From positions 1 through 46,375 of the forward strand of contig JAHEJV010000004.1 of the NCBI GenBank assembly GCA_024638705.1: a stretch of DNA of 46,375 nt, read 5' to 3'. The stretch is from Deltaproteobacteria bacterium (GTDB taxonomy: Bacteria; Myxococcota_A; UBA9160; SMWR01). A program made the translations under genes and the position numbers. This document shows, piece by piece, positions 23,831 through 36,054 of this stretch; within the stretch, counting starts at the first letter, position 1; each line of letters starts with the position of its first letter. The notes below the pieces were generated by a model, which saw nothing but the letters and a program-made list of their open reading frames with translations, had not been told where the DNA came from and did no database searches.

Positions 23831-24379
23831 CTAGATCGGCTCGAAGGACGAGACGGTGAACGTCACGTCGAGAAACTCGGGTTGGTCGGGGCGCGTGCGC
23901 ATGCGCAGGCTCTTCACGCTGAGTGCCTGGGGCGAGATGTCGATCTGGTGCAGGTATTTCACGGTCTGCGCGAGCGTCACGTTCTTGAGCCCGACCTCGA
24001 CCTTCGTCTCGCGATAGTTCGGATGCGAGGGCGACGCCTGCGGCTCCATCGACTCCACCAGGACTTGCGCCTGGCGCGCCAGCGTCTCCAGGGTGGTGCG
24101 CAGGTTGCCGCGCGAGCCGCGCTGGATGCGCTGCTCGACGTCGGCGAGGCGACCCTGGATCTCGTCGTACTCGCGGCGCATGCGCTGCATCGCGGCGAGC
24201 TGCTGGTCGGCGGAGGCGAGCCGCAGCTCCCCCGAGCCGGCGGCGTTGAGGATCGGGTTGACGATCAGAAGGTAGACGAGCGCGACCGCCGTCATTCCGC
24301 CCGCGACGGTGACGAGCCAGCGCTCGCGCGCTTCCAGCCCGTTGAACCCGTCGAGCAGGCGGTTCCAGAGCTCTTTCAC
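23831..24379 (-). CDS. gspM: Type II secretion system protein GspM
   Basis: GTG 24379: VKELWNRLLDGFNGLEARERWLVTVAGGMTAVALVYLLIVNPILNAA...; one TM and a ferredoxin-like periplasmic domain; follows gspL with 4-nt overlap. Confidence 0.8.
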   Translation of the reverse strand: MKELWNRLLDGFNGLEARERWLVTVAGGMTAVALVYLLIVNPILNAAGSGELRLASADQQLAAMQRMRREYDEIQGRLADVEQRIQRGSRGNLRTTLETLARQAQVLVESMEPQASPSHPNYRETKVEVGLKNVTLAQTVKYLHQIDISPQALSVKSLRMRTRPDQPEFLDVTFTVSSFEPI

Positions 24380-25929
24380 GAGTCGTTCTCCGGGTTGGCG
24401 AGACTGATCGTGACGTTGAACTTCTTGCCGCCGGTGCGGTTGTCGGTCTCGATCGCGCCGATGCGCGCCTGATCGAAGGGGGCGAACTTCGACAGCTCGG
24501 CGCCGAGCCGGTCGGACGACTCGAAGGTCCTCGCGTAGACGCGCAGCCGGACGGTCTGTTTGTCGATCGAGAGCTCCTCGAAGCCGACGTCGAGGTCCTT
24601 CGGGACGCGCTTCGAGATCTCGGTCAGGACGTCGAGTGCGGACATGTTTCCGCGGTAGACCCCGAGGAACTCGGCGCGCGCTTCGGCGTCCTGCACGGCG
24701 TCGCGCATGGCGGCGAGCGGGTCGTCGGGCACTTCCTGTCCGGGGAAGGCGCCCTGATAGAGGGCGGTGATCTGCTCTTCGACGCGGCTCGCCTCGCGCG
24801 ACTCGAGCACCGCGCCGGTCGAGAAGCTCACCAGCGCGAGTCCGGCGACGACGGCAGCGAGGATGCCGGTGGGCCCGAACTCGCGGCGTACGCGAGAGAG
24901 GTCGGCGCGGCGGGCGAAATCGTCCTGGCGCAGGTTGAGACGCGTCGTGCCGCGGCCTGAGCCGCGCATCGCCAGGGCGAGGGTCGGGGCGAGCTGACCG
25001 AGGCCGGCTTCGGCCAGGTCGAGCCCGGCTTCGTCGCGCGGCGTGCCGAGGCCTTTGCACGCCAGGCCCGTGCGTTCGCAGAGCCAGGTGTCGAGGTGCT
25101 CGAGCTCGGCGCCGCCTCCGATCAGGGTCACGTTGGCGATGCCGTCCGGGCAGAGCGGTTCGAGGGCCGTCGCGAAGCGGACGATCTCGGACGCGAGTCG
25201 GTCGACGACCTCCGCCGCGCGCGGGAAGGGTGCGCCGACACCCGGCTCGGCGACGCCGCGGGCGTGTTTGTCGGCCTCGGCGTCCTCGAGGGAGAGCGCG
25301 CGCTCGGCGGCGACGGCTTCGGTGAAAGCGCGTCCCGCGGTGCCGAGGGATCGCGCCGAGATCGCCTTCCCCTCGGCGAGGGCGCAGAGCGTCGTCTTCT
25401 CGTGGCCGATGTCGACGACCAGGCGGTTGCCGGGCCAGTCGAAGGCGTGGGAGAGATTTGCGAGCACGAGGCCTTCGCATTCGATCGTGCGCGCGTCGCA
25501 GTCGGCCTCGTGGAGCGTGCCGATCAGCTGGGAGACCTCGCTGCGCGGGGCGAGCGCGGCGATGACGTCGGCGCGTCCCGACTCGCGGTGGGCGAGCTCC
25601 CAGTCGAGGACCATCTCGTCGAGGTCGTAGGGCACCTGGTCTTCGATCTCGAAGGGAACCGCCTGGGCGAGCCGGCGTTTCTCGGTGAAGGGAAACGTCA
25701 GCCGCCGCACGGACACGCGATTGCCGCGCACCGCGGTGACGACGTGGTCGCGTTGGAAGGAGTGGATCCGCAGCATCCGCGAAACCTGGTCGGGCAGAGG
25801 CAGTCTGGCGTCGCGCGGCTCGGCGTGGACGCGCACGACCTTGAAGGTGCGCAGGCCCTGCTCGACCTCCACCGCCTTCAACGTGTGGCTGCCGAGGTCG
25901 AGCCCCAGGACGTTCTTCAGGATCGCCAC
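24376..25929 (-). CDS. gspL: Type II secretion system protein GspL (PilM-like ASKHA domain)
   Basis: 'LKNVLGLDLGSHTLKAVEVEQGLRTFKVVR', 'NRLVVDIGHEKTTLCALAEGKAISARSLGTAGRAFTEAV', C-terminal TM then PilN/GspL-like periplasmic domain. GTG start at 25929 preferred. Confidence 0.85.
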   Translation of the reverse strand: MAILKNVLGLDLGSHTLKAVEVEQGLRTFKVVRVHAEPRDARLPLPDQVSRMLRIHSFQRDHVVTAVRGNRVSVRRLTFPFTEKRRLAQAVPFEIEDQVPYDLDEMVLDWELAHRESGRADVIAALAPRSEVSQLIGTLHEADCDARTIECEGLVLANLSHAFDWPGNRLVVDIGHEKTTLCALAEGKAISARSLGTAGRAFTEAVAAERALSLEDAEADKHARGVAEPGVGAPFPRAAEVVDRLASEIVRFATALEPLCPDGIANVTLIGGGAELEHLDTWLCERTGLACKGLGTPRDEAGLDLAEAGLGQLAPTLALAMRGSGRGTTRLNLRQDDFARRADLSRVRREFGPTGILAAVVAGLALVSFSTGAVLESREASRVEEQITALYQGAFPGQEVPDDPLAAMRDAVQDAEARAEFLGVYRGNMSALDVLTEISKRVPKDLDVGFEELSIDKQTVRLRVYARTFESSDRLGAELSKFAPFDQARIGAIETDNRTGGKKFNVTISLANPENDS

Positions 25930-25939
25930 GAGGCCCCTC

Positions 25940-26998
25940 TCACAACGCGCGCCAGGATAGCAGCCGGGGGTCCGACCCATCCCCGCGGTCGACGACCGCC
26001 TCGATGCGCCGGGCCACGTCGCCGACCCGGCCCGTGGCCGTGATCACGAAGACGTCGCTCTTGTAGTCGGGCTCGGGAAAGATGGCGTTGGTCACGATCT
26101 CTCGTATCGGCGTGCAGCCCTCCGCACTTTGCTCTTCCGCGCAGACCAGGCCCCCGTCCTCGCGGGCGATCAGGAGCCGCCGCACGGTGTCCTCGTCCGC
26201 CAGCCGCAGCTCGACCTCGTCGTCGAAGAAGAGCAGCCCGAGGACCCAGGGCGGCGCGGTGTTGGGGTTGATGCCGCCGCCCCCGACGTAGGGGTAGACG
26301 GTGACGTAGGGCGCGAGCGCCGCCACGAGATGGCCGTCGAAGCCCTCCACGCGTCGCAGCTCGTCCACCGAGAGGACCGGGCGGTTGGCGGGCCGACCCG
26401 GAGGGTCGCGTCGCTGGTAGTCTTCGTCCTCGGGGCCGCCCTGTTGCTTCTCGCTGTCCTCGTCGACGTAGTCGATCAGGTTCGACGCGAGTTCGGTGGC
26501 GTCGTAGGTCTTCTCGCCGGGTGGCAGCGGGATCTCGGCCACGGCCTTCTCGATCAGGCGCTGGAGGAGGTCGGCGCCCTTCGGCTCGATCGCGCCGGTC
26601 TCGTCGAAGAACATCACGGCGTTGAGATTCAGCTTCGACGCGACGTCCTCGATCGACACCGCGAGGGACGAGCCGTCCGCGAAGACGATCGGCTGGCCGC
26701 TGACCTGCGCCCAGAGCTCTTCGCGGTGATCGAGCGCGAGCTGCGTCTGGCGCTCGCGGTACTCGTCTTCGAGCAGGAGTGCGGTCGCCAGGCGGACGCC
26801 GCCGCGTGCCAGGGCATCGGCCCGCGATCGCGAGTCGCGGTTCTGCACGATCATGTGATCGATCAGCGCGCGACTCTGGAAGGTGGCGATCGTGCTCGCC
26901 AGGAGCAGGGCGAAGAAGAGCACCACGACGAGGACGACCCCGCGCTCGCGGCGCCGAGCTTCCGACGAAGCCATCATCGAACGGCGCATCACAGACAC
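25940..26998 (-). CDS. gspK: Type II secretion system minor pseudopilin GspK
   Basis: 'RERGVVLVVVLFFALLLASTIATFQSRALIDHMIVQNRDSRSRADALARGGVRLATALLLED', 'IEDVASKLNLNAV', 'ELASNLIDYVDEDSE'. Confidence 0.88.
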   Translation of the reverse strand: MSVMRRSMMASSEARRRERGVVLVVVLFFALLLASTIATFQSRALIDHMIVQNRDSRSRADALARGGVRLATALLLEDEYRERQTQLALDHREELWAQVSGQPIVFADGSSLAVSIEDVASKLNLNAVMFFDETGAIEPKGADLLQRLIEKAVAEIPLPPGEKTYDATELASNLIDYVDEDSEKQQGGPEDEDYQRRDPPGRPANRPVLSVDELRRVEGFDGHLVAALAPYVTVYPYVGGGGINPNTAPPWVLGLLFFDDEVELRLADEDTVRRLLIAREDGGLVCAEEQSAEGCTPIREIVTNAIFPEPDYKSDVFVITATGRVGDVARRIEAVVDRGDGSDPRLLSWRAL

Positions 26999-27945
26999 TC
27001 CGGATTCACGGCCGGGTGGCCGGCGAGGATGTCCGCGTAGGGGGCGAACAGCGCGTCGGGGTTCTGTGCGAGCGCCGACAGCGTGCTGATGTCGGTGGGC
27101 GAGAGGCCCGCCGCCGCGGCGTCCGCCGCGCTCACCTTCGAGAAATCGACGCAGTCGGCGAGGGTGAGGTCACCGAAGTCGCCCTCGTCGCCCTCGCCGT
27201 CGGCGAATCCGTCCTCGCCGTCGGGATCGAGCAGCGCCTCGAGATCGATCGGGCGCAGCGGCAAGGGCACGTGGCGTGCATAACGTCGCGGCAGTGGATC
27301 GAAGCCGTCGTCGTCCATCTCCTCGTTCGGGTCGCGCAACCCGACCTCGATCTCGACGGCGAGCGGAAGCTCTCCCGAGTCGGCGAGCTGGGACGAGTCC
27401 CACTCCTCCTGCCACTCGCCGGCTGCGTCGAGGAAGCGCAGGGTGAAGGAATCGATCTCCTCGGAGACGACGAAGGCGTTCGGGTCGTCCGGGAGGGGAA
27501 GACTGCGATCGAGGCCGTCGGGCAGCTCGGGACGCGACCAACGGCGGAGTGCGAACCCTTCGCCGTCCTCGGCGCGGTCGAGGGTGTAGGCGACGACGGC
27601 GAGATCGGACGCGGGGCCGTCGCTGCCGCGCGGGCGCTCGCGGCGTACGAACTTGAGCTGGTCGGCGCCGCCCTGGTTGAAGCGCGATTCGCCGACGAAG
27701 AGCCAGGGGTGCCCGAGCGGATCGGCTTCGGACGGCTTGCGCACGAGCAGGGTGTGCTCGAGATCGGCGGCGATGCGATCGAGCAGGGTCGCCGCGCGTC
27801 GCACCTCGCGCGTGGATTCGGTGGCGCGCGTCGCCTGGTTCGAGAGGTCGATGTAGAAGTTGGCCGCGGCGCCGAGCAGGAAGCCCGTGATCAGCATGAC
27901 GCCGAGTACCTCGATCAAGCTGAAGCCGCGCTGCAAGCGCCTCAT
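26989..27945 (-). CDS. gspJ: Type II secretion system minor pseudopilin GspJ
   Basis: MRRLQRGFSLIEVLGVMLITGFLLGAAANFYIDLSNQ (type III prepilin signal GFSLIEVL) in the gsp operon; C-terminal acidic extension. Confidence 0.85.
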   Translation of the reverse strand: MRRLQRGFSLIEVLGVMLITGFLLGAAANFYIDLSNQATRATESTREVRRAATLLDRIAADLEHTLLVRKPSEADPLGHPWLFVGESRFNQGGADQLKFVRRERPRGSDGPASDLAVVAYTLDRAEDGEGFALRRWSRPELPDGLDRSLPLPDDPNAFVVSEEIDSFTLRFLDAAGEWQEEWDSSQLADSGELPLAVEIEVGLRDPNEEMDDDGFDPLPRRYARHVPLPLRPIDLEALLDPDGEDGFADGEGDEGDFGDLTLADCVDFSKVSAADAAAAGLSPTDISTLSALAQNPDALFAPYADILAGHPAVNPECL

Positions 27946-28538
27946 CGGCTGCCCTCGGTCTGGCGAAGGAGCTGCTCGAGCTCGAAGGCCTGCTCTTCGG
28001 CCGACGCCTCCTCGCCCTCTTCGCCTTCTTCGCCGCCCTCGGGCTCGGCTTCGGTGGGGAAGAGCTCGGCGAGCTCGCTGGTGTCGAGCGCGAAGGTCGT
28101 GCGCTCGACGCGCGCGGGCTCGCCCGCTTCGTCCCATCCGACGACGACGCTGATCCGCTGCACGCGACTCTGTCCGCGGTCGTCGACGAGCATCGTCTCG
28201 AGGGGCTCCGTGTCGTCGCGCCGGATCTCGTCGCGCAGCGCGCCCGGCAGCATCGCCATCACGTCTTCGGGCTGCACCTCGATCGCGATGATGTAGGGGG
28301 CCGACTCCTTCTCGGTGACGCCGTTCTCGAGCGGCTCGATCTGGATCAGGCTCTCGAGCAGCGCGAGCTCGCGGTCGGCGATCAGCGCGGCTTCGGCCTT
28401 CCTGCGGTCGAGCCCCTCGGAGCGGAGTCCGACGAGGGCGACGCGCGCGAGCATCGTGAAGACGAGGCCGAAGATCAGCACCGCCGCGAGCACTTCGATC
28501 AGCGTGAAGCCCCGTCGGTTGTGCCGACTAACTGCCAT
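27942..28538 (-). CDS. gspI: Type II secretion system minor pseudopilin GspI
   Basis: MAVSRHNRRGFTLIEVLAAVLIFGLVFTMLARVALVGLRSEGLDRRKAEAALIADRELALLES; acidic C-terminus. Confidence 0.83.
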   Translation of the reverse strand: MAVSRHNRRGFTLIEVLAAVLIFGLVFTMLARVALVGLRSEGLDRRKAEAALIADRELALLESLIQIEPLENGVTEKESAPYIIAIEVQPEDVMAMLPGALRDEIRRDDTEPLETMLVDDRGQSRVQRISVVVGWDEAGEPARVERTTFALDTSELAELFPTEAEPEGGEEGEEGEEASAEEQAFELEQLLRQTEGSR

Positions 28539-29094
28539 CGCGGACGCGGACGCGCTCGTCCAGCGGATGGACGTCGAGCGCAATGCGATTTCCCGCCGGA
28601 TCCTCGAGGTAGATCTCGGTGTAGTTCGCGCTGCCGTCGCGCTCGAAGTCGACGCTCGCCTCGCCGCGCGAGATCCAGCCGCCGGGTGTTTCGAGGCCCT
28701 CGAAGAAGAACGGGTGCTTGACGATCTGAAGCTTTCCGAAGTTGCCCGGGATCGGCCGGTAGGCGATCTCGGCGGCGCGCGGCGCTTCGAGCGAGAGCGG
28801 CGAGTTGCCGCGCAGGTCGGGATCGGCGAGACCGGGGTCGACGGCGTCGGGATCGGATTGCAGCCACTCAAGCCGGAACTCGGCCTCGTCGAGCTCCATC
28901 CACATGCGGTGCGGGATTCCGGTGACGATCGCGCGTTGACGCGCGAGCTCGAGCTGACCGGCGATCTGCTCGGCCTCCGCGCGCAGGGCGCGCACCTGGA
29001 CGCCGGCGAGGTTCGGGATCACGAAGGACGCGACCAGGGCGAGAATCGCCGCGACGGCGAGGATCTCGATGAGGGTGAAGCCCTGCTTCCGCAT
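28528..29094 (-). CDS. gspH: Type II secretion system minor pseudopilin GspH
   Basis: MRKQGFTLIEILAVAAILALVASFVIPNLAGVQVRALRAEAEQIAGQLELARQRAIVTG. Confidence 0.86.
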   Translation of the reverse strand: MRKQGFTLIEILAVAAILALVASFVIPNLAGVQVRALRAEAEQIAGQLELARQRAIVTGIPHRMWMELDEAEFRLEWLQSDPDAVDPGLADPDLRGNSPLSLEAPRAAEIAYRPIPGNFGKLQIVKHPFFFEGLETPGGWISRGEASVDFERDGSANYTEIYLEDPAGNRIALDVHPLDERVRVRDGS

Positions 29095-29118
29095 CCGGAT
29101 GGCGCGCCGCGCGGCGAG

Positions 29119-29589
29119 CTAGCTGTCCAGGGCGTCGTCTTCCGCCCAGTTTCCGAAGTCGGCGTCGACGCCTTCGCCGCCCGGCGACCCGTCGGCGCCG
29201 AAGGACCACAGGTCGTATGCGCCGCGGTTGTGTTGTCCGGGCGACTCGTACTGATAGGGGTTGCCCCAGGGATCTTCCGGGATATGGCGCTCGCGCAGGT
29301 AGCTCTGCTGGCTGCGCGCCTCGGGCGGGGGCGAGATCAGCGCGCGCAGGCCCTGCTCGGTGGTGGGGAAGCGCGAGTTGTCCATGCGGTAGGTCTCGAG
29401 CGCACCGTCGAGCATCTTGATCTGGGTCTTCGCGGTGCTGACGCGCGCCTGCTCGATGCGCGGGATGATCGCGACACCGACGAGCGTGCTGAGCAGGCCG
29501 ATGATCAGCACGACCGCCATGATCTCGATGAGCGTGAACCCGTCTTCGCGGACGAGGAGCCGAGAGGCCTTCTGATTCTTCTCTCGCAT
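29119..29589 (-). CDS. gspG: Type II secretion system major pseudopilin GspG
   Basis: 'REDGFTLIEIMAVVLIIGLLSTLVGVAIIPRIEQARVSTAKTQIKMLDGALETYRMDNSRFPTTEQGLRALI...DPWGNPYQYESPGQHNRGAYDLWSFGADG'. Confidence 0.96.
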   Translation of the reverse strand: MREKNQKASRLLVREDGFTLIEIMAVVLIIGLLSTLVGVAIIPRIEQARVSTAKTQIKMLDGALETYRMDNSRFPTTEQGLRALISPPPEARSQQSYLRERHIPEDPWGNPYQYESPGQHNRGAYDLWSFGADGSPGGEGVDADFGNWAEDDALDS

Positions 29590-29606
29590 CTTCTTCTCCT
29601 TCGGAA

Positions 29607-30842
29607 CTAGCCGAGCGAGGTCGTGACCTGCAGCAGGGGCACGAGCGTCGCCAGGATGATGACCAGGACGATCCCGACCATCACGAGGATCAGGACCGGT
29701 TCGAGCAGGGCGGTGAAGCGGCTGACCGTCGTCTCGACCTGCTCTTCGTAGGTGTCGGACACCTTCGTGAGCATCGATTCGAGCTCGCCACTCTGTTCGC
29801 CGACCTCGATCATGTGGGTGACCATCGGGGGAAACTCCCCGCTCGCCTTGAGCGGGGCTGCCACGCTCGCACCTTCGGTGATGCTGGTGCGGGCCGCCGC
29901 GATGGCTTCGGCGATCACCGTGTTGCCGGCAACCTGCCCGGCCGTTTCGAGCGCCCGGGTAATCGGCAGACCTCCCGAGAGTAGCGTGGAGAGAGTGCGC
30001 GCGAAGCGCGAGATCGCGATCGTGCGGACGAGCCGTCCGACCAGAGGAAGCCGCAGACGCACGCGGTCGTAGGTGGCGCGGCCGCGCTCGGTGCGGATCA
30101 CCATCCGGAACGCGGTGACGAAGGCGACGCCCACGAGGATGACCGCCCACCAGAAGTCGCGCATGAAGTTGGAGAGCGAGATGATCCAGCGCGTGTAGAA
30201 GGGCAGCTCCTGGTTGAGACTCGCGAGCAGCTCGGTGATCTGCGGCAGCACGACGGTGACCAGGGCGCCGACCACGACGCAAGCGAACAGGAACATCACC
30301 GTCGGGTAGATGAGGATCGAGCTGACCTTGTTGCGCAGCCGGACCTGGCTCTCGAGGTAGTCGGCGAGCCGGTCGAGGACGGTTTCGAGCGCGCCGCCGG
30401 CCTCGCCCGCGCGGACCATGCCGACATAGAGGTCGGGAAAGATCCCGCCGCCGGCGGCCATCGCGTCGGCGAGCGCCGAGCCTTCGTTCACGCGGTCGCG
30501 CACCTGGCCGAGCACGTTCTTGAGGCGCGCGTTCTCCACCTGATCGGTGAGGGCGCGTAGGGCGGACACGAGGGGGATGCCTGCGCCGACGAGCGTCGCG
30601 AGCTGTCGCGTCATCAGCGCGAGATCGAGCGGCGAGACGCGTTGGAATGTCGGAAGGGACACCGAGAAGCGGCTCGCTCCCGGCGCCGCGGCAACGGCGT
30701 CGCGCCGGCCCTCCTCGAGCTCGGTGAGGAACACGCCGTCGCGACGCAGGCGTGCGCGCGCTGCGCGGGAGCTCTCGGCGTCGAGATGGCCGCGGGTCTT
30801 CTTCCCCGCTTTCGTGACGCCCTTGTACGCGTAGACCGGCAC
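29607..30842 (-). CDS. gspF: Type II secretion system inner membrane protein GspF
   Basis: MPVYAYKGVTKAGKKTRGHLDAESSRAARARLRRDGVFLTELEE...; two T2SSF domains. Confidence 0.96.
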   Translation of the reverse strand: MPVYAYKGVTKAGKKTRGHLDAESSRAARARLRRDGVFLTELEEGRRDAVAAAPGASRFSVSLPTFQRVSPLDLALMTRQLATLVGAGIPLVSALRALTDQVENARLKNVLGQVRDRVNEGSALADAMAAGGGIFPDLYVGMVRAGEAGGALETVLDRLADYLESQVRLRNKVSSILIYPTVMFLFACVVVGALVTVVLPQITELLASLNQELPFYTRWIISLSNFMRDFWWAVILVGVAFVTAFRMVIRTERGRATYDRVRLRLPLVGRLVRTIAISRFARTLSTLLSGGLPITRALETAGQVAGNTVIAEAIAAARTSITEGASVAAPLKASGEFPPMVTHMIEVGEQSGELESMLTKVSDTYEEQVETTVSRFTALLEPVLILVMVGIVLVIILATLVPLLQVTTSLG

Positions 30843-30851
30843 CCGAATCCC

Positions 30852-32615
30852 TTAGATCTGGGCGACCGCGCCCTGTTCTTCGGTGGCGCGCAGCACCTCG
30901 GCGACTGATGTCTTCCCGGCGAGCACCTTGCGCGCTCCGTCGGAGCGCAGCGGGTGCATGCCTGCGCGGATGGCCGCGCTCTTGATCGTCTTCGAGTCGA
31001 TGTTCTGGCTGACCAGCGAGCGCACGTCGTCGTCGATCTGCATCAGCTCGAAGATGCCGAGCCGACCGCGATAGCCGGCGTAGTTGCAGCCCGCGCAACC
31101 CTCGGGCCGGTAGAGGCGCACCGGGCGACCCGGTGCACGGATGCCGAGCTCGGCGAGCTCTTCGTCGGTGGCCTCGTACGGCGTCTTGCAATCGGGGCAG
31201 AGCACGCGCACGAGGCGCTGAGCGAGCACCGCGACCAACGACGAGCCGACCAGGAAGGGCTCGACGCCCATGTCGACCAGACGCGTGATCGCGCTCGGCG
31301 CGTCGTTGGTGTGGAGCGTCGAGAACACGAGGTGGCCGGTGAGCGATGCCTGAATCGCGATCTCGGCGGTCTCGAGGTCGCGGATCTCGCCCACGAGGAT
31401 CACGTTCGGGTCCTGGCGCAGGATCGACCGCAGCCCGCTCGCGAAGGTGAGGCCTACTTTCGAATTGACCTCGATCTGGCCGATGCCGGCGAGCTGGATC
31501 TCGACCGGGTCCTCGATCGTGATGATGTTCTTGTCCGTGGCATTGATGCGAGACAGCGCGCCGTAGAGCGTCGTCGTCTTGCCGGAGCCGGTCGGTCCGG
31601 TGACGAGCACGATGCCGTTGGGCCGCGTGATCAGCTTCTGCATCGTTGCGAGCTGCTGTTCGTCGAAGCCGAGCGTGGTGAGGTCGAGGAGTTCCTGCGT
31701 GCGCGGCAGCAGGCGCATCACGACGCGCTCGCCGTAGGCGACGGGCAGGGTGGACAGACGCACGTCGTAGTCGCGGCCGGCGATCTTCAGGCGGATGCGA
31801 CCATCCTGGGGCAGCCGCTTCTCGGCGATGTTCAGGTGCCCCATGATCTTGATGCGTGAGACGATGCTCGCCTGGAGGGCCTTCGGCAGCGGCTTGATCG
31901 GCTCGTAGAGCACGTTGTCGATGCGGAAGCGCACGCGCAGCTCGTTCTCGAACGGCTCGAGGTGGAGGTCGCTGGCGCGCTCCTTCACCGCGTTGTGCAG
32001 GAGCGAGTTGACGAGCTTGATGATCGGGGCGTCGTCCTCGCCCGACTCGAGCAGGTCCTGCGGCTCGGAGCTGATCTCGCTCGCGAGCATCGAGAGGTCT
32101 TCGGCGGCGTCCTCGGCGAGGGCGTCGGTGGAGCCCGGGCCGCGGTCGTAGGCCTCGTTGATCGCGCCGAGGATCGTGCGCTGGGTGGCGAGCTCGATCA
32201 CGATGTCCGCGCCGTCGAAGAGCAGGCGCAGGTCGTCGAGCGGGCCCGTGTCGAGCGGATCGGTGACGGCGACGCGGATGGCGCCGCCGGCTTCCCGTGA
32301 CAGCGGCAGGACGCCGTGGTCCTTTGCGAAGGCGATCGGCAGCTGTTCGATCAGGCTCTCATCGACGTCGCCGTGGTGGATCTGGGCGCGGACGGGGAGG
32401 CCGAGCTGCTCGGAGAGCGCGCCGAGCAGCTGGTCGGCGGAAACGAAGCCGCGCGAGACGAGAGCGTCGGACAGGCGTCCGCCGGACTCGCGGTGGGCCT
32501 CGTGGGCGATCTCGAGCTGCTCCTCGGTGAGCGACGTGGTCCGCAGCAGGATCTCGCCGAGGTCCCGCGGTGCGGGCGGCCGATGGGCTGCGACCGGATC
32601 GACGTGTGTGCTCAT
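30852..32615 (-). CDS. gspE: Type II secretion system ATPase GspE
   Basis: MshEN-type N-terminus, Walker A 'VTGPTGSGKTTTLYGALSRIN', Asp/His boxes, tetracysteine 'CPDCKTPYEATDEELAELG...PEGCAGCNYAGYRGRLGIFELM'. ATG 32615 preferred (GGGGGGAAC upstream). Confidence 0.96.
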   Translation of the reverse strand: MSTHVDPVAAHRPPAPRDLGEILLRTTSLTEEQLEIAHEAHRESGGRLSDALVSRGFVSADQLLGALSEQLGLPVRAQIHHGDVDESLIEQLPIAFAKDHGVLPLSREAGGAIRVAVTDPLDTGPLDDLRLLFDGADIVIELATQRTILGAINEAYDRGPGSTDALAEDAAEDLSMLASEISSEPQDLLESGEDDAPIIKLVNSLLHNAVKERASDLHLEPFENELRVRFRIDNVLYEPIKPLPKALQASIVSRIKIMGHLNIAEKRLPQDGRIRLKIAGRDYDVRLSTLPVAYGERVVMRLLPRTQELLDLTTLGFDEQQLATMQKLITRPNGIVLVTGPTGSGKTTTLYGALSRINATDKNIITIEDPVEIQLAGIGQIEVNSKVGLTFASGLRSILRQDPNVILVGEIRDLETAEIAIQASLTGHLVFSTLHTNDAPSAITRLVDMGVEPFLVGSSLVAVLAQRLVRVLCPDCKTPYEATDEELAELGIRAPGRPVRLYRPEGCAGCNYAGYRGRLGIFELMQIDDDVRSLVSQNIDSKTIKSAAIRAGMHPLRSDGARKVLAGKTSVAEVLRATEEQGAVAQI

Positions 32616-32643
32616 GTGTTCCCCCCGTTTCCCGACGCCGCGA

Positions 32644-35139
32644 TCACTCGCTTTCCTCACCTTCGAGGACCAGGATCGACGGCGCCAGGCCGTGCGAACG
32701 CTGCACCGCCTCGCCGACGGCGTTCGCGTGGTCGAGGGTTTCGTAGGGCCCGAGATGGATCTCGTAGATCACGCTGTCGCCGACCCGGGCGGAGACGAGC
32801 GTGCCGTCGTGGCCGGAGTCGATCAGGTCGGTCAGCAGGCTCGCGGCCGCGTCGGGGTCGCCGAGGATCGCGGCCTGGAGGACGTAGCGATCGGCGGCGG
32901 CCCTGGCGCCGGCCTCGGCGGCGCGCTGGGCTTCGGTGATCGCGCGGATCTCGCTCATCCGCTCGTTCGGATAGCGCGCACGATGGGCGGCGACACGCTC
33001 GCGGATCGGCTTGCCGTGGTGTTCTGGCGTGTAGGGCAGGCCCTGTTCCTCGGCGAGGGCGAGACGCTGGGCCTCGACCTCGAGATCGCGCTCGGAGAGC
33101 TCGAGCGCGCGACCCGAACGCTCGCGGAACTCCTCGCGGCGGCGGATCGTATCGCCCTCGAGGTCGATCGGCGTGCGCACGATGCGCGGCGTCAGGAACA
33201 CCAGCAGGTTGGTCTTGCGCGTGCTCGTCGACGTCGACTTGAAGAGCCAGCCGAAGAACGGGATGTCGCCGAGCCACGGGACCTTCGTCTCGCTATCGGT
33301 TACCTGGTCCGATAGCAGGCCGCCGATGACGACCGTCTCGCCGTCCTGCACGACGACCGTGTTCTCGACGCGGCGGTTCGAGAGCGCGACGCCGACGTCC
33401 TCCTGGTTGCCGACGCCTTCCTGGAGGCTGCTGTTGATCGCGGTGATCTCCTGGAAGATCTCGAGGCGCAGGCTGTTGCCCTCGGTGATCTGCGGGGTCA
33501 CGCGCAACGTCACGCCGATGTCCTGGCGTTCGACGTTCACCGACGACGAGAGCCCGGTCTCCTGGCCCGCCGCCGATTCGACACGGCTGCTGATGATCGG
33601 GATGTTGTCGCCGACGCGGATCTCGGCCTCTTCGTTGTCGCTGGTGAGGATGTGCGGCGCCGACACGATGTTGATGTCGCCGTTGCTCGCCGACAGGTCG
33701 ATGATCGAGTTGATGATCGAGCCGCTGCCGACGCGGTTGCCCGATGCGTCGAGGTCGCGCGTGTCGCGGAACACCTGACCGAGGAGCGGCACCGACGCGC
33801 TCGTCAGGGGCACACCCGTCGCCGCCGTGGCCGCCGAGGTGGCGGACGCGACGAGCAGGTTCGTGTCGCCGTTGATCGCGCCGAGCAGGCCCGTGATCCC
33901 GATGTTCTCGGCGTCGTTGACCGTGAGCTCCATGATCAGCGCTTCGACGGACACCTGCGGGCGCTCGACGTCGAGCTTCTCGATCACCTGCGCGAGGGTG
34001 TTGAAGCCCTCCTGGCTCGCCTGGATGATCAGCGAGTTCGTCGCCGGGTCGGCGCTGACGCTGATGCCGCCCGCCAGTCCGGTGACGGCGCTGCGGATCG
34101 CCGGCGTCGCCTGGGCGGCCGCGGCGCCGCCTGCCGCCGTGGTCACCGACGAGCTCCGCCCGCCTCCGATCAGGCCCGACAGCGTGTCGGCGAGCTCTTC
34201 GGCATTCGCGTTGTTCAGGTAGTAGACGTGGATGCGGCCGCCGCCCTGGACGGGGATGTCGAGCTTCGCGACGAGCCGGCGCACTTCTCCGAGCTGGGCG
34301 CGCGGAGCGAGCACCAGCAACGAGTTGGTGCGCTCGTCGGTGAGGATGCGGACGGGCGGCTTGTTCGCAGCCGCCGGGGTTTCCGTGTTGGCCCCGGAGC
34401 GCCGCCGCGTCGAGCGCCGCGTCGTGCGCGTCGTCTCGGTCACCTGTGCGCCGTAGATCTCCGACACCTGCTCCGCGAGCGTAGTGGCGTCGGCGTACTC
34501 GATGTTGATGACGGCGAGCTCTTCCTTGTAGGTCTCGACGTCGATCGACTCGAGGATCGCGATCAACCGACGGATGTTCGAGGCGGACTCGGTGAGGATG
34601 ACCGTGTTGGTCGGGGCGTAGGCCGCCATCGCCGCGTCCTTCGAAACCAGCGGCTTGAGCGTGTTGACGATCGAGTCGGCGTCGATGTAGTTGAGCGGAA
34701 TCAGGCGGGTGACGAAGCGGTCGCGATTCGGCGGACGGCGTGAGCTGATCACCGTCTCGATGCTCGACTCCTTCGCCTCGCGCACCGGCACCACCTTGAT
34801 GGCGCCGCCCGGAGTCGTGACCGTCGTGAAGCCCTTCACCTGGAGCACCGACTCGAACACGGCGTAGGCCTGTTCGATCGGGATCGGTTCGGGGGAGACG
34901 ATCGTCACGCGGCCTCGCACGCGGTCGTCGTAGATGAAGTTCCGGTTCGTGGCGCGCGCGATCGTCTCGATCACCTGGGCGAGCTCGGCGTCCTGGAAAT
35001 CGAGCGTGACCATCGTCGTTTCGTCGTAGTCCGCCTGCTGTGCGGCGGCGGGGACGGCGAGTCCGACAGCGAACGCGAGGACCGCGGCGAACGCGAGTGT
35101 GCGCGGCGCCCGGAGGTGCGAGATGGAAGTGGTGATCAC
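32644..35139 (-). CDS. gspD: Type II secretion system secretin GspD with C-terminal SPOR-like domain
   Basis: N0 'MVTLDFQDAELAQVIETIARATNRNFIYDDRVRGRVTIVSP', N1-N3 repeats, secretin 'VEALIMELTVNDAENIGITGLLGAINGDTNLLVASATSA...IVSAPHILTSDNEEAEIRVGDNIPIIS...VVIGGLLSDQVTDSETKVPWLGDIPFFGWLFKSTSTSTRKTNLLVFLTPRIV'; the last ~80 aa resemble SPOR. Confidence 0.95.
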   Translation of the reverse strand: MITTSISHLRAPRTLAFAAVLAFAVGLAVPAAAQQADYDETTMVTLDFQDAELAQVIETIARATNRNFIYDDRVRGRVTIVSPEPIPIEQAYAVFESVLQVKGFTTVTTPGGAIKVVPVREAKESSIETVISSRRPPNRDRFVTRLIPLNYIDADSIVNTLKPLVSKDAAMAAYAPTNTVILTESASNIRRLIAILESIDVETYKEELAVINIEYADATTLAEQVSEIYGAQVTETTRTTRRSTRRRSGANTETPAAANKPPVRILTDERTNSLLVLAPRAQLGEVRRLVAKLDIPVQGGGRIHVYYLNNANAEELADTLSGLIGGGRSSSVTTAAGGAAAAQATPAIRSAVTGLAGGISVSADPATNSLIIQASQEGFNTLAQVIEKLDVERPQVSVEALIMELTVNDAENIGITGLLGAINGDTNLLVASATSAATAATGVPLTSASVPLLGQVFRDTRDLDASGNRVGSGSIINSIIDLSASNGDINIVSAPHILTSDNEEAEIRVGDNIPIISSRVESAAGQETGLSSSVNVERQDIGVTLRVTPQITEGNSLRLEIFQEITAINSSLQEGVGNQEDVGVALSNRRVENTVVVQDGETVVIGGLLSDQVTDSETKVPWLGDIPFFGWLFKSTSTSTRKTNLLVFLTPRIVRTPIDLEGDTIRRREEFRERSGRALELSERDLEVEAQRLALAEEQGLPYTPEHHGKPIRERVAAHRARYPNERMSEIRAITEAQRAAEAGARAAADRYVLQAAILGDPDAAASLLTDLIDSGHDGTLVSARVGDSVIYEIHLGPYETLDHANAVGEAVQRSHGLAPSILVLEGEESE

Positions 35140-35157: not shown

Positions 35158-36054
35158 TCAGTCCCTCGGTACGAAGGTGCGTTGGGTTTGCGCGCCACTG
35201 GCGTCCAGGATCGTGAGGTCGAACTGATCGGCTTCGGCGAACTCCTGGAAGATCTTCACGCTCTGGTCGGGCGAGTCGATCGAGATCCCGTTGAACTCGG
35301 TGATCACGTCGCCGTCGTTCAGCCCGATTTCCTCGAAGAGGCTGCCGGACTTGATGGAGTTCACCTGCAAGCCGACCATTTCGCCGCCTTCGAACTTCGG
35401 CAGCACGCGCGCCTGCGACAGCAGGTTGCTCGGATTGCGCAGCGTGTCCTCGAGATCGCGCCGCGACACGTCGAAGGCGCCGCTCTCGTTGCGCGACACG
35501 CGGGGGGTCCGATCGCGCGACGCGCGCTGCCTCGGAGTCCGCGCCTTGCGGCGGACCGAGGGCTTGCTCGACGAGCCTTCCTCGTCGAGGGTCAGTTCGC
35601 GCGGCGCGCCGTTCTCGGTGAGCACGACGCGGCGTCGCTCGATGCGCGTGACGAGCGCCTTCCCCTTGATCTGGTCGCCGACCGCGACGACGAGCGTCTC
35701 GTTCTTCTCGCGATCCTGGAGCGTCGCGCGGGAGCGGTCGGGATCGGACGCGGCGAAGGTGCCGAGCAGCTTCACCGGGAGCTTCGACTTCTCGAGGTCT
35801 TCCTCTTCCTGCGTGGCTTCGGCGACGGCCGTCGCGCTTCTCGTGCTCGAGTTGAAGAGGTTGCGCTGGAGGATGACCTGGCGCTCGGACCAGGTGCGCT
35901 GCCGCGTCGGCGGGGCCGTCGTCACGACGGCGGTCGCCGCCGGCGACGGAGCCAACACCGTTGCGGCGATCACCTCGTTGACCGTGTCGGCCGCGAGGAA
36001 ACAGCCCAGCGCGAACAAGAGCACGTTCGCGGTCCAGGTCATCACAGAACCCAT
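35158..36054 (-). CDS. gspC: Type II secretion system protein GspC (HR + PDZ)
   Basis: Single N-terminal TM, HR region 'LPVKLLGTFAASDPDRSRATLQDREKNETLVVAVGDQIKGKALVTRIERRRVVLTENG', C-terminal PDZ 'GLQVNSIKSGSLFEEIGLNDGDVITEFNGISIDSPDQSVKIFQEF'. Confidence 0.9.
   Translation of the reverse strand: MGSVMTWTANVLLFALGCFLAADTVNEVIAATVLAPSPAATAVVTTAPPTRQRTWSERQVILQRNLFNSSTRSATAVAEATQEEEDLEKSKLPVKLLGTFAASDPDRSRATLQDREKNETLVVAVGDQIKGKALVTRIERRRVVLTENGAPRELTLDEEGSSSKPSVRRKARTPRQRASRDRTPRVSRNESGAFDVSRRDLEDTLRNPSNLLSQARVLPKFEGGEMVGLQVNSIKSGSLFEEIGLNDGDVITEFNGISIDSPDQSVKIFQEFAEADQFDLTILDASGAQTQRTFVPRD

Follow-up and report, generated by a model that had tools for sequence, protein, structure and literature searches.

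A SPOR-fold domain predicted at the C terminus of the type II secretin GspD in one Myxococcota lineage, with a remodeled glycan-reading pocket

Where both pilotin and GspAB are missing, the means by which a secretin arrives in the outer membrane and stays there is an open question; some type II secretion systems (T2SSs) lack known pilotins and GspAB, and other pathways possibly exist (PMC10329019). This question is raised by a gspD gene of a deltaproteobacterium (contig JAHEJV010000004.1), the product of which appears to end in a SPOR domain. The bacterium belongs to a little-studied class, probably UBA9160 of GTDB, a taxon within Myxococcota. The gene lies in a stretch of 46,375 nucleotides that was analyzed as a whole and is referred to here as the window. 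In other proteins, SPOR domains hold on to the septal cell wall, and the points at issue are thus whether the GspD tail belongs to this family, how widely it is shared, and whether it can be expected to bind the wall in the same manner.

The window's GspD is a type II secretin encoded inside a gspC-to-gspM cluster. It scores 548.9 bits against the NCBI equivalog model TIGR02517 (cut-off 351.35), and Pfam resolves it into an N0 domain, three Secretin_N domains and the Secretin domain. Within the cluster, gspJ, gspK, gspL and gspM were assigned by Pfam, gspH by its N-methylation motif, and gspG and gspI by reading the open reading frames. The first GTG of its open reading frame was taken as the start of gspE, so that its first 17 bases coincide with the last ones of gspD; a downstream ATG is also present.

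35158..36054, minus strand: gspC, with T2SSC and PDZ domains, upstream of gspD (PF11356, E 1.5e-15)
32644..35139, minus strand: gspD, type II secretin of 831 amino acids with a GTG start (TIGR02517)
34792..35004, minus strand: N0 domain of GspD, residues 46-116 (PF21305, E 2.4e-25)
33175..33690, minus strand: secretin barrel of GspD, residues 484-655 (PF00263, E 4.2e-51)
30852..32660, minus strand: gspE, the ATPase (PF00437, E 2.6e-141)
29607..30842, minus strand: gspF (PF00482, E 1.6e-65)
23831..29600 (approximate span), minus strand: gspG, H, I, J, K, L and M, consecutive

Behind the barrel, GspD continues into three recognizable parts, the last of which is the tail in question.

33070..33174, minus strand: post-barrel S-domain region with a helix, residues 656-690, starting RIVRTPIDLEGDTIRRREEF... 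(AF2 helices)
32944..33009, minus strand: conserved linker motif, residues 711-732, consensus NPxRxxLxxHxxRYPxERMxEIE
32665..32895, minus strand: predicted SPOR-fold domain, residues 749-825 (PF05036, AF2 and Foldseek, 48/48 relatives)

A preliminary description had claimed a SPOR-like C-terminal tail at 32644-32892, behind a linker of about 90 amino acids; coordinates and sequence are correct, on the minus strand and in frame with GspD, and the linker length agrees. That description had been staked beforehand on a PF05036 match at a reasonable E-value and on a ferredoxin-like β-α-β-β-α-β fold, and it survived on both counts. PF05036 matches residues 749-822 of the full protein with 23.1 bits (E 9.5e-5) and the tail alone with 25.9 bits (E 1.2e-5; cut-off 21 in both cases). 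For comparison, 48 distinct complete C-terminal regions of GspD relatives were gathered from named genomes and from relatives of the window's genome and aligned. Each of the 48 matches PF05036 with an E of 1 or lower, the strongest with 4.5e-12. An AF2 run on this 48-row alignment predicts strands and helices in the expected order (model numbering: E113-121, H124-136, E141-148, E151-161, H164-178, E183-187), with a mean pLDDT of 90.7 for the model and about 95-98 across the SPOR domain. When the tail model was compared with the PDB by Foldseek, the only matches below 1e-3 were the SPOR domains of CwlC (1x60) and RlpA (6i09/6i05), with a TM of 0.84-0.85 across the RlpA domain. A sequence profile of the tail likewise placed the FtsN and CwlC SPOR domains near the top of PDB matches, with weak scores. 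Model and profiles together indicate that the GspD tail is a real SPOR-fold domain. A chance match is ruled out by the relatives and the Foldseek result, and a fusion or frameshift artefact of annotation by the continuous frame, which recurs in dozens of genomes and is broken by stops in very few of them. That the tail might be an ordinary ferredoxin-like extension of the S-domain with a spurious resemblance to SPOR, as the low score of the window protein alone could suggest, is very improbable and in practice already refuted, because every relative matches the family, Foldseek ranks SPOR above every other ferredoxin-like fold, and even the weak profile matches are to FtsN and CwlC.

The region joining barrel and tail is unevenly conserved across the 48-sequence set. 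Mean pairwise identity is 0.69 for residues 645-671, and a stretch equivalent to the S-domain region is also found in Desulfuromonadales GspDs without SPOR. The linker that follows is partly conserved and predicted to be helical; its motif, in which Y is present in 46/48 and R in 47/48 relatives, was matched consistently by no Pfam family, and the variable stretches flanking it have mean pairwise identities of 0.19 and 0.18. The SPOR domain itself is gap-free over the whole set, with a mean pairwise identity of 0.39.

The survey of GspD homologs for which the preliminary description had called finds the tail in all 48 relatives and limited to two Myxococcota orders among 379 genomes. Barrel end, linker and SPOR are continuous in 66 genomes of the window's order (counted among the matches listed in the search of 379 Myxococcota genomes), and two further genomes of the order match this arrangement in pieces. 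The sister order contributes seven genomes with the continuous arrangement and one more with a partial match. The rest of the 379 genomes gave no continuous arrangement; what matched there were SPOR proteins unconnected to a secretin, or barrel ends with nothing of the tail behind them. Nine genomes of the order without a tail match (G016, G027, G029, G031, G036, G038, G040, G044 and G060) were checked by a second search and gave no match, a fragment only, or a distant secretin only; thus, among the order's genomes covered by both searches, the tail was missing from no complete GspD ortholog. Inheritance from an ancestor common with the Desulfuromonadales GspDs was considered and not seen, as the sampled ones stop 37-100 amino acids past the barrel without SPOR. 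In 395 genomes of the Desulfuromonadales phylum, barrel-end and SPOR matches lie at separate places with a sole exception (L213). This distribution, in the Myxococcota and in the tail-less Desulfuromonadales, indicates by homology search that the tail is fixed in one lineage made of two sister orders. In a SPOR tree the tails of both orders cluster apart from free SPORs and from a second secretin, on too few columns according to the tool's own warning.

This second, divergent secretin is encoded in the same order, is about 30% identical to GspD, and has a short tail with a SPOR-like domain directly after the S-helix in 18 aligned copies (L182-L187, L193-L201, L203, L205 and L207). PF05036 matches 13/18 of these tails at E <= 10 (best 9.8e-8), their predicted fold is closest to RlpA-SPOR, and a comparison of profiles pairs them with the GspD tail region at 97.3%, with the S-helix included in the match. 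In the window's own family, copies L202, L204, L206 and L210 are without a tail. One SPOR-tailed copy (L224:9204-11456) lies, as judged by reading its single neighborhood, outside any secretion cluster, beside genes read as glycosyltransferase and membrane-protein genes. The exception L213 (G451:C52:42102-42659) is a 603-amino-acid secretin from the Desulfuromonas-outgroup phylum that carries a C-terminal SPOR-like domain. It is distant from the GspD of the SPOR-tailed Myxococcota lineage, and its domain is apparently an independent acquisition. C-terminal SPOR domains on secretins have thus probably arisen more than once.

The open-licence papers searched yielded no report of a C-terminal SPOR domain on a secretin, whether GspD or PilQ, and among T2SS secretins with SPOR only LspD of Legionella, at the opposite (N-terminal) end. 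The C-terminal placement on a T2SS secretin is genuine, lineage-wide and apparently undescribed. For LspD, too, a SPOR domain has been predicted, and its system is reported without GspA/GspB (PMC6617341, PMC9239104), but the domain lies before N0, whereas that of the window's GspD follows the S-domain region; no Pfam match precedes residue 46 of the window protein, and the two lineages are unrelated. PilQ of Pseudomonas and Myxococcus is another secretin bearing its own wall-binding modules, and the AMIN domains of the P. aeruginosa protein show that the septal wall can recruit a secretin (PMC5285504); these domains are, however, N-terminal and belong to the type IV pilus. The GspB/OutB and ExeAB scaffolds likewise link secretin and cell wall (PMC9239104), but as separate inner-membrane proteins. 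The SPOR domains of RlpA, FtsN, DamX and CwlC share fold and family (PF05036) with the tail, RlpA-SPOR being among its nearest solved structures. These proteins are not secretins and keep the glycan-reading Gln, and RlpA and FtsN also keep the Arg.

It is at these residues that the tail departs from its family. In the structure of RlpA-SPOR with glycan, side-chain contacts are made by Q270, R302 and R309, and R311 belongs to the same basic patch as R309; of the key residues Q270, R309 and R311, the FtsN counterparts are Q251 and R285 (PMC6895207). GspD tails, free SPORs and second-secretin tails were compared in a joint alignment at the places of Q270, R309 and R311.

32875..32877, minus strand: Gln755, at the place of FtsN Q251 / RlpA Q270, retained in the window's GspD
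32761..32763, minus strand: Glu793, at the place of FtsN R285 / RlpA R309, charge reversed relative to Arg

The Gln is present in 11/48 GspD tails and lost in 37/48; the R309/R285 place is Glu in 37/48 and Arg in 2/48, and 15/48 tails have Arg at the R311 place. The Gln survives in the window's GspD (Gln755), alongside Glu793 and His795, and the tails of the sister order retain Gln in 7/7 with Arg absent. By comparison, the free SPOR proteins of the lineage have Gln in 30/30, Arg/Lys at the R309/R285 place in 30/30 and Arg at the R311 place in 30/30, these 30 controls being the best-scoring protein of each genome, a choice that favors canonical sequences. The window genome's other SPOR protein above the cut-off (L001, G000:C438) is canonical (VQVGAF...WRVRVGP) and served as a control. 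Mean net charge is -8.3 for the GspD SPOR domain versus +2.9 for the free SPORs, while the N-domains of these GspD proteins are neutral. In the second-secretin tails, the position normally held by Arg is Asp in 17/18 copies. As a group, then, GspD tails mostly lack the β1 Gln and basic-patch Arg by which denuded glycan is read. This weakens the functional claim and not the membership in the SPOR fold, because these residues are functional in the studied members and are not required by the Pfam model; the alignment and the structural model together point to a pocket that is remodeled while the fold stays SPOR.

The preferred reading, to which we would give roughly even chances and which ranks above the two alternatives weighed below, is that the tail docks or anchors the pore in the envelope through a changed ligand and not by binding denuded glycan in the standard way. 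In this lineage, GspD has gained a C-terminal SPOR domain behind the S-domain region and the linker. Since T2SS secretins are 15-mers with an S-domain (PMC6532946) on the periplasmic side of the outer membrane, about 15 SPOR-fold tails should be arranged as a ring in the space separating this membrane from the wall, and this ring would fix or position the pore by docking to a cell-wall zone. Its remodeled acidic face would no longer read denuded glycan in the standard way; candidate ligands are some other wall feature, of glycan or peptide nature, or else a protein that is attached to the wall or belongs to the secretion system. The conserved fold, the replaced glycan residues, the acidic tail and the failure to find known helpers all support a changed ligand. 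Against it, an inter-subunit packing role would yield equal conservation.

A less likely proposal is that wall contact has been lost altogether and that the tail binds a neighboring GspD, GspC or an assembly factor, acting much like an internal pilotin or stabilizer. That the Arg site has turned acidic in the tails of GspD and of the second secretin alike fits such a role, as do Asp774 and Gly776, which are invariant and GspD-specific and probably lie off the glycan-binding sheet because the AF2 model places them between helix 1 and strand 2. The absence of any known pilotin family above the cut-off in the 41 genomes searched also agrees with it. However, the SPOR domains with known function bind the wall, and the key Gln is retained in the sister order.

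Still less likely, in our judgment, is canonical SPOR function, in which the tail would bind stem-peptide-free glycan and thereby recruit and anchor GspD at division sites, as the PilQ AMIN domains do. The predicted fold and the PilQ precedent favor it. So does the finding that RlpA contacts glycan mostly by backbone atoms (PMC6895207), because of which ordinary denuded-glycan binding could persist despite the loss of side chains; this point, together with the Gln of the window protein and the sister order, also counts against a changed ligand. Nevertheless, single Arg-to-Ala changes suffice to lower binding by RlpA (PMC6895207), and in most tails the residue at the lactyl-carboxylate site is not merely lost but reversed to Glu, whereas the free SPORs of the same lineage keep Arg/Lys there. 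Standard reading of denuded glycan, and hence septal targeting, is therefore doubtful on the alignment evidence, the key Gln and Arg being mostly replaced and the domain strongly acidic. The preliminary description, which had read the tail as a peptidoglycan-binding SPOR domain, holds for the fold and for its C-terminal position after the S-domain region but is not supported for denuded-glycan binding by the known route; its suggestion of recruitment to division sites is likewise made doubtful by the same replacements, set against the canonical free SPORs.

The preliminary description had also recognized no pilotin candidate, and a wider search agrees: across 41 of the order's genomes, with the window's own about 90% complete, no PulS/OutS or AspS/GspS-beta type pilotin was found, the families PF09691 and PF16549 giving nothing above cut-off although both models gave positive control matches in E. 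coli. GspB (PF16537) gave nothing above cut-off in the same 41 genomes. Of its weak below-cut-off matches, one in G003 lies just upstream of GspD, at the expected place of GspC, and one in G028 just upstream of another secretin. Pilotins are very diverse in sequence, so that family models may miss them. For this reason, and because of the genome's completeness and the existence of T2SSs without such helpers, the searches give weak support to the tail as a substitute for a pilotin, a role that is unproven. We consider it improbable that the broadest account holds in full, namely that a lineage-wide, secretin-specific SPOR subfamily, its pocket turned from basic to acidic, assembles into a ring of 15 by which secretins, both T2SS and orphan, attach to a new cell-wall ligand and which replaces pilotin and GspAB.

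In all, a lineage-fixed domain of a wall-binding type, fused to the GspD C terminus where pilotins act, is a direct candidate for how a secretin may hold its place in the outer membrane without these helpers. Moreover, its replaced pocket offers a natural test of whether the SPOR fold may serve ligands other than denuded glycan.
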